This document shows positions 26,631 through 54,200 of a stretch of 64,000 bases of DNA, in pieces (positions within the stretch are counted from its first letter, which is position 1; each line of letters opens with the position of its first letter). Both the position numbers and the translations under genes were made by a program. The DNA comes from Glandiceps talaboti (lineage: Eukaryota; Hemichordata; Enteropneusta; Spengelidae): NCBI RefSeq assembly GCF_964340395.1, contig NC_135561.1:4946001-5010000 (forward strand), read 5' to 3'. The notes under the pieces are model-generated. The model searched no databases. It was not told the DNA's origin and saw only the letters and a program-made list of their open reading frames with translations.

Positions 26631-29600
26631 TTATGTTCTTCGTGTACGTTTCGTGAACGTCGGTGATGGAGATGGTGCTGAGCGTCTTGTTATTCTAGTT
26701 GGAGTACTAGAACCAGTATTTGGTCCGTTTTGTGAGTTCTGAGGTGTACCAGGTGGTGTACTGGTGCGATTACTTGTTCTGATTCGTTTCACGGCTGGCT
26801 CTTCGTCTTCTGCGTTGAATGGTGGCGGTGGTTCAGAACGTATTGGTCGCATTGCACGACCCCTCGGTGAAGAAGTTGGTGAGAGATTCGATGTAGGAGT
26901 CATGCCTGTTGATATATGAAATAACAATTTAGTATGTACGTATAATCTCATTTCTCAAGTACTTTGGTAAGATTTTGAACATTTTTTTAAATGTAATTGC
27001 GAGATGAATGCTTGAATGTTTGTAATCTATAGTAGGTAGAGGGGTCATGTAATGCTGTAACAAGGTTCCAACTGATTGGAAAACACAATCATTTATACTT
27101 TATTATCATTAGAATCACCAACAATACAGGCAGTACTTTTAGATATCATTCCCTCCTTCATTCAGCCAAGGAAACCTTGAGTTACCTATGGTGTCTTGTC
27201 ACCACGAGTTGCTAGACGAGTAGTGACAGAACCCTTAGGACATGAGTATTTCCTTGCCGAATGTGGAAAATGTTGGGAATTCCCAGAATATTATCAAAAT
27301 ATAATTTAATTAACACAGACAACATCTGTGAAAAATCTGGAAATATAATGGCAATTTTAAACATTTTGACTCATATTTCAAGCACGATAGAACCAATGAG
27401 GTAGAGTTGCATTGTCATGATGTGATGTAGAATGACCAGGGTATAAATTCCATATTTTTTGCTCAACTTGGTTTATGAATGGTATAATTTTCCAATTATT
27501 TTACTTTTATGTTTACTTCTCTTTTTCACTGTTTTGAGTTTGACGTAATCAAAATTAGGATCCAGCTTTAACATTAATGAAAATTTGAGAAACACGAAAA
27601 TAAGAGAATAAACTTTGTGTACTTTGAAATCAATAGTTTTTTATCATGATGGTAGAAAGGATATTTGAATAATTATACACGTTTCTAGCACAGAAATTTG
27701 AAACTGAAAACAGAGTGGGACATACAGATACAATGGATCACAGCATAGATGGACTGGAAGAGGGAGACACAGACAGTATGAGGGAGGGACAGGGAGAGAC
27801 AGACAGTATGAGGGAAGAACAGGGAGACATGAGGGAAGGACAGGGAGATACAGACAACATGATGGAAGGGGCAACTGGGAGACAAGAATGGATATGAAGA
27901 AAGAGATGAGACTGAGATACGAACAATAAGACTGACACAGGGGCACACAGACTAGGGTACAGACACATGGAAAGTGGCAAATATATGATAAATTCTTTGA
28001 CAGACCTAATTTCCTTTCAATAGTTCTGAGTTGATCCTCTGCATCCTGATACTCTTTCCGTTTATCTTTCATTTCTGGTGTGTTTTCATTATGGAGCTGG
28101 TCTTGCAGTTCCTTCTCTGCAGCAACTCTTTTTGACATGGCTACTCGGTAATTTTGAAGTGTTTCTGGAAGTTAAAATATCAGACAAGTCAGTTTTTTCC
28201 ATTTCAGTCTACTCTGTATTCAACCTCACTTTCATATTTTTTATCCCCTCTCGTTTTTTGTGCTTATTGTGGGTAGGTGGGGATGGGGGTGGGGGGTCTT
28301 CTTGCTCACTACAATGCAGTTTCTGAAGTCTACCATAAGGTCACAATTTTCATAAATTCATGTGTTCAACTAAGAAATTTATATAGTATTTATACCTGTA
28401 CCTTAAAACTTTATAATCACTTTTCCTGAAAGTCTGTCAAAGTGGGAAAGCTAAGAATTTGGCCAATAACATAACTACCTTAGAAACCTTGTGTACATAT
28501 TGGTAATGTATTGGTAATGGTAGACATACCTATTTGCTTGGTAATGTACTGGTAATGGTATACATACCTATTTGCGTACACATTGCATGATACTGTATTG
28601 GTAATGGTAGACATACCTATTTGTGTACACATTGCATGATACTGTATTGGTAATGGTATACATACCTATTTGCGTACACATTGCATGATACTGTATTGGT
28701 AATGGTAGACATACCTATTTGTGTACACATTGCATGATACTGTATTGGTAATGGTATACATACCTATTTGTGTACACATTGCATGATACTGTATTGGTAA
28801 TGGTATACATACCTATTTGCTTGGTAATGTACTGGTAATGGTATACATACCTATTTGTGTACACATTGCATGATACTGTATTGGTAATGGCGCACCAAAG
28901 ACAGCACCTTTGAGTTTATCAATTGGTAAAGCTTTGTTTTGTACACCACCAAATTTACCATTACTCCTAATTCTGTCTCCATCCCTGGTTAGTAACGTTG
29001 GACAGTGGGTGATCTTTACAACCTAAGAATTACATATAACAATCAGAACTGTTAATACAGTATGGAAATAAAGAAAGACACTAAACTGGGTACATGTCAA
29101 AATTTTTAGTTCACCTCAGTATCTCAACTCATTTCTTGTATTCATATGTTTCCATGTATTGATTTCATACCATGTTTTTCTTTACATGTTGAGGTTTTTC
29201 TTTGTTTTTATCATGCATTCTGTAAATAGTTATTCATAGCTGTAGGACCCAGAATAAATACTAGTAAACAAACACACAGCTTGTTGCAGAAGACATCAAA
29301 TCTTTACAGGAAGTAGTTAAATCTTTCTAATTACGGATTCTATAGCTGAATTACCTGTATACTAGTGATTGATGTATACACTGGATTGATATCCATATGT
29401 AAACAGTACCAATAAATAGTCTGGTTCATTCAATATTTCATGAACAAATGATACACTCACAGATGGTGCTATGGTCTGATCATTACATCAGGTGATTTCA
29501 TGTGAAAATGCTGAACATACAACACTTGCAATAGTTGTCTAGAAATGTTGGGGATCAGAACATTGTTTTATCAGTGGTAAACAATTAAAAACTAGCTTTG

Positions 29601-51200: not shown

Positions 51201-54200
51201 CTTTGGGCCGTTGTAATCACTAGGGAATGTTTCCCTATCATACAGGAATGGATGATACCGGATAACACCTTCCACAATACCAGTACCCTCTACTACAGCT
51301 TTGAACTCAAAGTTATCACCAGCTGATCTGATATATCTGGTCTGCATGTCATCACTGACATCACGTAGATTCAACTCTTTCGGTGTCTTGCCTTTATCAT
51401 GTAAGACAATCTCAATGTCAAGATTCTTGAATGGACTACTAGGTCTGTATCCACCAACTGTTCTCTCTTCATTACCCCGTGGACCATGGATGTAGTAGTG
51501 ATATATATGTCTACATTTGAAAAATCAATAATCAGGTATTAATTTTCTCCTTTGTCTTTGGAACAAGTGTTAACTTTAACAAACAATTCACCATTGAGAC
51601 AATTGAAGGAGACCTCAAAATTGTTTTATCAACCTAGCTAGCTGATCTTTCATTTGAAGACTGGACAAATAAGGGATTTTACATCCTGTTGCAGATCTCG
51701 CAAGATATGCCAATATGCCTAGCAACAATAATTGTCAAACATGTGATCGTGGCCATGTGCAATGATGTTGAGAACAATAATGTTGCTAAGCATTTGACAC
51801 TTTCAGCTTGACCACCCTCATGTAGTTGCTATGGACTCAATGTCTCATGCAAGATCTCATGAGATCTGCCGCGAGACGAAAAATGACTGTACACATGATG
51901 GGTTGACTGTATCTACTTACGCTAGATGTCTACACCAACCCTTGAAATCAGATCTCAGATACTGTACATGTGATGGGTTAATTCCTGTGATAATAACGGC
52001 AGTGAAACTAGTTTTACCAATCTCTTCTTTTATCAAACTTTGTATCAATTCTTCTTCAGCTGGAATATGACTTCCATCACCTGGCTGTAAACATATAATA
52101 AATATACTGTAATAACCAATCAATAAATAAAACAAATAAATAAAGTTCAATTGTCATTTCATTTTGACCATTGAGGGCACCATACTTTGTTTTTTGAAAA
52201 GTATATCTGGACTATTAGAAGAATACCTATTACCCTGTATATAATTAATAACACAATGTTGGTGGCGCTATTCTGCTACTGCATTCCCTCTAGTTACGTT
52301 ATGTAATGAATCAACAACAACACGGTTTACCTTTCTGTTTCTGATATATCCACTGTAAATGGATTCTCTGTTCTTTTCTTTCCTTTCAAATTCTTCTTTG
52401 GATATGGTCAGTTCATGTACATCCTTAGAGTTGGCAGGTCTTGTGATCATCTGTACAGTAAAATACAATTTTTCGTCATTCTGATAACAATTTGTTATCT
52501 TACTTGGAGCTATTTCAGTTGTATGGACAATTAATTGTTCTGTTTTACATGACAGTGTTATTATTAAATATATCTAACTGGGGTAATATCACTATTTAAT
52601 GACCTAGGCATTCAATGTGAATACTAACCCTTGTTGAATAGTCACTCACGAATATTGCCTGATTAAAGCTACTTATTTCACCATGGTAATTTACTATCTA
52701 TTTATTCACCTGGGCAATAAAACCCAATACTCACCTTGGTTGAATGACTAACAAAGAATATTGCCTGTTTGCCACTGTCTCCAAAGCAGGAGATATCATG
52801 TTTAATGACCTGGGCATTAAAATTTAATACTCCCCCCTGCTTGAATGACAGATACAGAATATAGCTTGTTTGCCACTTTACTACAAAGTAGGTGATATCA
52901 CTATTTAATGTCCTGGGTATTAAAATTTAATACTAACCCGGGTTGAATGACCAATAAAGAATATAGCCTGTTTGCCACCCACTCCAAAGTAGGAGATATC
53001 ACTATTTAACGACCTTGGCACTTCCTGGTCAAAGCCTGGTAGATTACTGGGAATAGGCTGTTCCTGCCTGTGGACAAATCCGGAATACAAGTCAGCAACA
53101 TTACACTAGAGTAGTGAAAGTGCAACAGTCATTGGTCCATATACATGCATAATACCTAGCTATAGCCTAGCGACAAGTCATATAGGGATTTTTAATTATT
53201 GTCTCCCCTCTCACCTAGCCAAAAGTATGTATACATGTAATCACACAGAAAGTACGCCTTACAAGATTTATAATTCCCTAAGTTTTAATTTGGATTGTTT
53301 TGTGACACTTTCATTTACTTGGAAATCAATGAAAAAAAATTTAATTATAATTTATATACCATATTTCAGTTATTAACTTTGTAGTCATTTTTCAAACAAG
53401 TGTCACAAGACTGAGGCCTCCCAGATATGCAAAAATGAGGCCTAAAATCACAAAGCCGTACATGTAGGAGCCAATAACAATGGCTACAACAATTTCACAA
53501 GTTTCTTATGTCTGTAACAGAATAAGCAGAAATTTTGGGATGACTTGAGAATGTCAAACATCTGTTGTCAAACATTGGGTAATGATGATTTTCGAAAAGG
53601 AAGTTATAGTACTCAACTGTCATTGTGATCACTTCTGGCCCAAAAGCTGCACTCGAACAGCACTCCAAGTGGTCAAACTATGAAATCTTTTGTCTTTCCA
53701 ATAACTTGAATATGTCATACTACAGAGCATACTTACCCTTTCTTTTCGTTCCTGATAAACTTTGATAATCTATATATAGCCCAATTATTGAGTTGTCTGG
53801 ATGTCATACCACAACCATTGTCAATCACACACATTAAACTTTTACCAGGTGATTCATCAAGGAACTATATGTAGGAATATCAAATATACAAGACATAATC
53901 AATGACAAATAAAATGAACAGAAAAATTCCCAACAAAGTAGTTTTATTGTTTAGTGCCCTCAAAAGGCCAAGCTCCAATTAGACTTGAAATTTGGGTACG
54001 GTTGTCTGGCAGAGCTAGAAAAATGTTAGTTCTGAAATAGAGTATGATCCTTAATTCCTATGTAATCCTTATGACTTCACTTACATATAGTGTTGTGGGT
54101 CAAAGTGATAAAAACAATGTTCTTTTGTGGGTCCAGCCTAGAAGCTTGCCGGTAATTACTGGCATTTGCCGGTGAAAAATATGCCAATGCCGGTGAATTT

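Follow-up and report, generated by a model that had tools for sequence, protein, structure and literature searches.

The gene SMCHD1, in the 64,000-nucleotide window analysed here (contig NC_135561.1, positions 4,946,001 to 5,010,000; the coordinates below count from the first letter of this stretch), carries four tandem arrays, A1 to A4, each of which has an exon-intron edge inside it. In all four the model edge lies at least 8 bp within the array on either side; three of the edges are donors and one is an acceptor. We read the arrays as 'mirage' minisatellites that were probably seeded across exon edges and have been tolerated since the exon-proximal splice site is the one used, and from the genomic sequence we give this reading a probability of about 0.8. 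The edge-copying structure, and the occurrence of several such arrays in one gene, are already known from lancelets; the points of interest here are that four occur in a single gene and apparently in a new phylum. The arrays suggest that mirages are not confined to lancelets.

The arrays and the splice sites they copy

The arrays were located with Tandem Repeats Finder (TRF). Four arrays had been placed close to these positions in the initial annotation, each said to copy a splice site of SMCHD1, and both TRF and the gene model agree with it: each array does hold an exon edge. The arrays and the exons concerned are as follows.

28500..28890, minus strand: array A1, whose units of about 49 bp (some of 38 bp) cross the donor of exon 28851-29022 (TRF; donor at 28850; AAATAGGTATGT in eight copies)
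44348..44713, minus strand: array A2, 5.8 copies of a 63-bp unit, spanning the acceptor of exon 44205-44377 (TRF; acceptor, with 44377 as the first exon base; a 32-mer in six copies)
48729..49052, minus strand: array A3, 4.0 copies of an 81-bp unit, spanning the donor of exon 49021-49218 (TRF; donor at 49020; a 19-mer in four copies)
52698..53020, minus strand: array A4, 3.2 copies (80% matches) of a unit of about 101 bp that crosses the donor of exon 52938-53067 (TRF; donor at 52937; site scores)
28851..29022, minus strand: predicted SMCHD1 hinge-region exon, donor copied in A1 (provisional human protein; 6n64 match ending about eight residues before the junction)
44205..44377, minus strand: predicted SMCHD1 exon, acceptor copied in A2 (provisional human protein)
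49021..49218, minus strand: predicted SMCHD1 exon, donor copied in A3 (provisional human protein; 6mw7 aligns to the first part only)
52938..53067, minus strand: predicted SMCHD1 ATPase-domain exon, donor copied in A4 (provisional human protein; 6mw7 match across the junction)

The gene occupies the minus strand of the window between about 58.2 kb and 28.0 kb. Its predicted product is SMCHD1, as had been proposed, and this is borne out by two solved chains in PDB that match translated parts of it, 6mw7 for the ATPase region (E 2.1e-224) and 6n64 for the hinge (E 1.1e-84). The model was built exon by exon against a provisional human SMCHD1 protein sequence, the junctions being chosen by frame, similarity and splice signals, and the splice matrices were made by hand from the consensus. 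It is incomplete, with some exons missing, junction 28 not found and junctions 29 and 31 low-scoring, and the statistics given below take in 36 complete exons with 72 edges. In this incomplete model the four exons are numbers 6, 12, 20 and 38, close to the 6, 12, 20 and 41 given earlier. The A4 junction is the single one of the four that falls within a PDB alignment, as 6mw7 crosses it, and the 6n64 hinge alignment ends short of the A1 junction. Neither alignment reaches the A2 and A3 junctions, which are based on the provisional human protein together with the open frame.

Judged by eye, exon end and intron contribute about 39 and 10 bp to the A1 unit, about 31 and 50 bp to the A3 unit, and about 75 and 25 bp to the more decayed A4 unit. 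In A2 every copy carries a pyrimidine tract and an AG of its own, followed by some 30 bp from the start of the exon. The extra copies of A3 resemble one another more than they resemble the exon, GT has been lost in one middle copy of A4, and a degenerate tail of A4 reaches about 52580, again by eye. In each array the real section of the gene is retained at one end and the extra copies are intronic. Exact copies of the splice motifs number eight for the A1 donor 12-mer, six for the A2 acceptor 32-mer and four for the A3 donor 19-mer, where shuffles expect 0-0.03. The many decoy sites proposed at the outset are indeed there. A4 is degenerate: in an ungapped comparison with the 85-bp edge window, two places alone reach a match of at least 60%. 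Splice signals are thus kept in many of the copies, not in all of them. The TRF match levels are 88% for A1, 95% for A2, 92% for A3 and 80% for A4.

Use of a decoy would in most cases bring a premature stop, as predicted for 12 of the 14 decoys tested (a set that excludes two additional motif copies of A1 and the weaker copies of A4). In A1, A3 and A4 the exon-proximal site is the only one tested that leaves the frame open. It had been noted earlier that the arrays expand towards the intron in every case; this carries no separate information, since copies past the authentic site are intronic by definition, and the stops brought by those 12 decoys are to be set beside it. The donor score is equal in every copy of A1 (six of the eight were scored) and of A3, and the A2 acceptors score 3.6-4.2. 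With scores this close in A1 to A3, site strength on the hand-made matrix cannot pick out the authentic site.

Known mirages and related systems

In PMC3087553, tandem repeats over exon-intron boundaries are described in lancelet globin genes and proposed as a source of introns; the name 'mirages' goes back to Adh3 (Canestro 2002, as cited in PMC3087553). The lancelet units are 10-160 bp long, lie at donor or acceptor edges and have AG or GT in many but not all copies, and the Adh3 data together with reverse transcription-polymerase chain reaction on globins suggest that regular splicing is undisturbed by them (PMC3087553). The SMCHD1 arrays are like those of lancelet Adh3, BflGb6 and BflGb9 in that the unit spans a 5′ or 3′ edge, the extra copies are intronic, the signals are kept in many copies and the unit lengths are similar (PMC3087553). 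They are unlike Adh3 and the globins in occurring in another gene, apparently in another phylum, and four to a gene, and they are known here from the genomic sequence of one assembly. The initial annotation knew of no described case of several such arrays in one gene. That claim is not supported: lancelet PGBD5 has two edge-overlapping arrays, of 60 bp and 108 bp, in the account of PMC3902484, which also mentions troponin C. PGBD5 therefore shares with SMCHD1 the presence of several edge arrays in one gene, but it has two against four and its host is a lancelet (PMC3902484).

Other systems resemble the arrays in part. Intron gain by tandem duplication (the Rogers model, named in PMC3087553; potato RdRp, PMC4974935) likewise multiplies splice signals, but there a new intron is formed, whereas the SMCHD1 arrays copy existing edges and imply no new intron. 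The repeats described for human segmental duplications in PMC2812944 are variable minisatellites that may sit at an exon-intron boundary, as here; they differ in belonging to recent paralogs and in their mean unit length of about 30 bp. Among the papers listed by our literature searches (in one of them 10 of 475) there was no report of a hemichordate mirage, which is weak evidence of absence. The arrays carry a lancelet curiosity into what is apparently another deuterostome phylum and into a well conserved gene. They also amount to four natural series of near-identical competing sites, on which RNA reads could test whether the spliceosome chooses by position or by strength.

Origin of the arrays and rival explanations

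By the route that we propose, tandem duplication would first have copied a short stretch in which an exon edge lay by chance; slippage or unequal exchange would then have expanded the repeat and homogenised it in part. Normal mRNA would come from the exon-proximal copy of the site, and the extra copies would be intronic decoys, mostly ignored. The mirage reading is favoured by the edges inside the arrays, the exact motif copies, the divergence among copies, the frame that stays open at the exon-proximal sites of A1, A3 and A4 and the stops that follow from most decoys, the A4 junction that matches the SMCHD1 of PDB, the anatomy in common with the published mirages, and a fifth mirage-like array in RPN2, the neighbouring gene in the 10 kb that follow the window. 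Some findings weigh against it. On the hand-made matrix the A4 decoy at 52734 (AAG/GTGAGT) scores 7.9 and the authentic site (CGG/GTTAGT) 1.4, and the use of the latter would not be predicted by plain site strength. The A2 acceptors at 44443 and 44506 stay in frame through the next exon, adding 66 and 129 nucleotides (22 and 43 residues), and judging by their frame they could be usable. In addition, three of the four array junctions have no PDB alignment over them.

Whether arrays prefer exon edges was asked against more than one null, with a sample of one gene picked for its pattern and one neighbour. Under unit placement, one seed unit per array is placed at random in the gene; we hold this to be the better null, since the content of an array descends from one seed. 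For the 13 TRF clusters of SMCHD1 with period of at least 20 and score of at least 50, 0.76 edge-spanning arrays are expected and 4 were seen (P 0.0037, post hoc). The result is 4/10 (P 0.0018) at a score of at least 100, 4/6 (P 0.0018) at a period of at least 40 and score of at least 150, and 4/8 for hand-picked arrays (expected 0.66, P 0.0015). RPN2 alone gives 1/4 (P 0.12), and the pool of six SMCHD1 and four RPN2 arrays of period at least 40 gives 5/10 (expected 0.82, P 0.0004, with the discovery gene included). The RPN2 exon map behind these figures is incomplete, consisting of 9 of 15 plus-strand predictions chosen by a judgement of their likeness to RPN2 rather than by a search, and two TRF rows of period below 40 were left out. 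If whole arrays are instead placed at random, each of A1 to A4 touches an edge with a probability of 0.53-0.58. A third approach counts 40-bp windows that have a near-copy (at least 30/40) within 500 bp: these are 4/72 at edges, 205/3013 in introns and 7/415 in exons, but once the windows inside A1 to A4 are removed introns fall to 56/2826 (2.0%) vs 4/72 (5.6%) at edges, the intron windows overlapping and hence not being independent. The outcome of the window count follows from whether array copies are counted. The answer as to an edge preference depends on the null and is unsettled.

These figures divide between two accounts of how the edges came to be included. According to one, minisatellites arise anywhere in this exon-dense gene and survive if the exon-proximal site is intact, so that chance followed by a selective filter suffices and the mutation has no link to splicing. 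We regard this account as about evenly poised between right and wrong. It agrees with the position-wise count in which array copies are included, where edges are not richer in near-copies, with whole-array placement, with the post hoc choice of the pattern and the non-significant result for RPN2 alone, and with the three long-unit arrays that lie between two RPN2 exons; the unit-placement values for the 13 TRF clusters, the hand-picked arrays and the pool, and the near-copy percentages without the A1-A4 windows, run counter to it. The other account, which we hold tentatively and would sooner doubt than accept, has a mutational process tied to edges (e.g. R-loops, nucleosome borders or shared motifs) that seeds tandem duplications. 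The same unit-placement values speak for it, as do two more arrays close to edges (45389-45501, ending 1.5 bp from an acceptor, and 40769-40868, of 30-bp unit, 16.5 bp away from a donor), a 67-bp array in a gene on contig C4 that ends at the acceptor AG, and the recurrence of mirages in several lancelet genes. Set against these are the lack of an excess in the position count with copies, the small post hoc sample and the RPN2 result. That A3 was found at one genomic place among the best candidates scored also counts against a dispersed element as the seed. The initial annotation had raised the possibility of a mutational link to splice sites, which these counts neither demonstrate nor refute: unit placement of the TRF clusters speaks for it, post hoc, and position-wise counting and whole-array placement do not.

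A dispersed repeat as the source of the units was sought in the 590 Mb of the genome (47 contigs) and rejected as far as tested, A3 being found at one genomic place among the best candidates scored. Besides itself, A1 had eight listed matches (66-69% identity); these fall within a single stretch of contig C4 that has a 22-bp array, and we read them as similar simple sequence.

It is improbable, in our judgement, that the decoys have a function, whether in reducing SMCHD1 output as regulated poison sites or in giving in-frame protein variants from A2. The frequent stops among the decoys tested and the two in-frame A2 acceptors would suit such roles, but published mirages are seemingly harmless to splicing, and homogenisation alone predicts intact copies. 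An assembly artefact is less probable still: the same assembly does have the mitochondrial genome three times in tandem on a single contig and is not free of artefacts, yet the copies within each array differ to the extent given by the TRF match levels, unlike a simple artefact of repeated reads, and the comparable lancelet PGBD5 repeats were confirmed by new data, as reported in PMC3902484. Beyond the mirage reading itself, exon edges might be favoured birth places of minisatellites in ambulacrarians and lancelets alike, through an old deuterostome process that duplicates splice sites. We think this unlikely; if it were true, edge duplication would provide starting material from which introns and isoforms could newly arise.

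Neighbouring genes, other repeats and the mitochondrial genome

RPN2 (locus L011) was identified by Pfam Ribophorin II domains (E 6.1e-12 and 5.9e-7). Its mirage-like array, 5.3 copies of a 41-bp unit at L011:8180-8398 (C14:5018180-5018398), reaches across the acceptor of a predicted RPN2 exon whose first base is at L011:8383. As judged by eye, the closest copies finish with AAAG in place of the ACAG of the authentic site.

Within SMCHD1, the minisatellites at 33400 and 41524 are intronic and span no exon edge, as had been said of them. The first of the edge-near arrays mentioned above is:

45389..45501, minus strand: array of 5.1 copies of a 22-bp unit, abutting the acceptor of exon 45268-45387 and holding no exon sequence (TRF; model)

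Long AC, GA and ACACAC tracts were also found by TRF within the span of the gene (37716-37976, 45985-46201 and 32871-33018). The density of arrays with period 30-250 and score of at least 150 differs strongly between two stretches of the genome, at 14 per 84 kb on C14 (C14:4936001-5020000) vs 1 per 200 kb on C2 (C2:10000001-10200000). In the 200-kb C2 block four arrays reach a period of at least 15 and a score of at least 100, and none lies within 60 bp of the 55 predicted exons, many of which are doubtful (18 of the 55 score at least 16, and some are simple sequence). The exon finder was trained on SMCHD1 itself, so that how it scores that gene does not test it independently. Myosin exons were located as well, with at least 78 matches among the matches listed and the best 65 of 175 candidates scored.

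The gene on contig C4 (L009, C4:1853001-1863000) has the 67-bp array at L009:8929-9075, and the same gene has a 22-bp array of about 125 copies at L009:4040-6820, which begins 27 bp past a predicted exon. The gene may be androglobin-like, a name that is a guess; it has no Pfam match up to E 1.

The mitochondrial DNA has a GC content of 53%, and AAA and AGG each occur 0 times in 3581 codons of 11 genes, with AGA absent too; the count is without atp8, and the untrimmed nad6 frame has two AAA. The loop of tRNA-Lys is CTCTTAA, with anticodon CTT (CUU), and the ATA codons of cob stand opposite I 7, V 3, T 1, Y 1 and M 0 times (12 aligned, best PDB match). In Table 3 of PMC3121625 the Balanoglossus row has AAA and AGG unused, AUA = Ile, that same tRNA-Lys loop and AGA = Ser, and ATA = Ile is common to echinoderms and hemichordates in the account of PMC2697986. 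A lancelet as host was considered and rejected, as the missing AAA, ATA = Ile and the CUU anticodon of tRNA-Lys fit the Balanoglossus row of that table and not its cephalochordate row (PMC3121625). Naming the genes by eye, we found cob between atp6 and cox3 and not next to nd5, unlike in the two hemichordates compared in PMC2697986, where nd5 and cob are adjacent, a feature that does not define the phylum. We take the host to be very probably an acorn worm, though this gene order leaves its phylum likely rather than certain. On contig C40, of 51 kb, three places with COX1 lie 15,435 bp apart, and 865/865 overlapping bases are identical between two of the copies.

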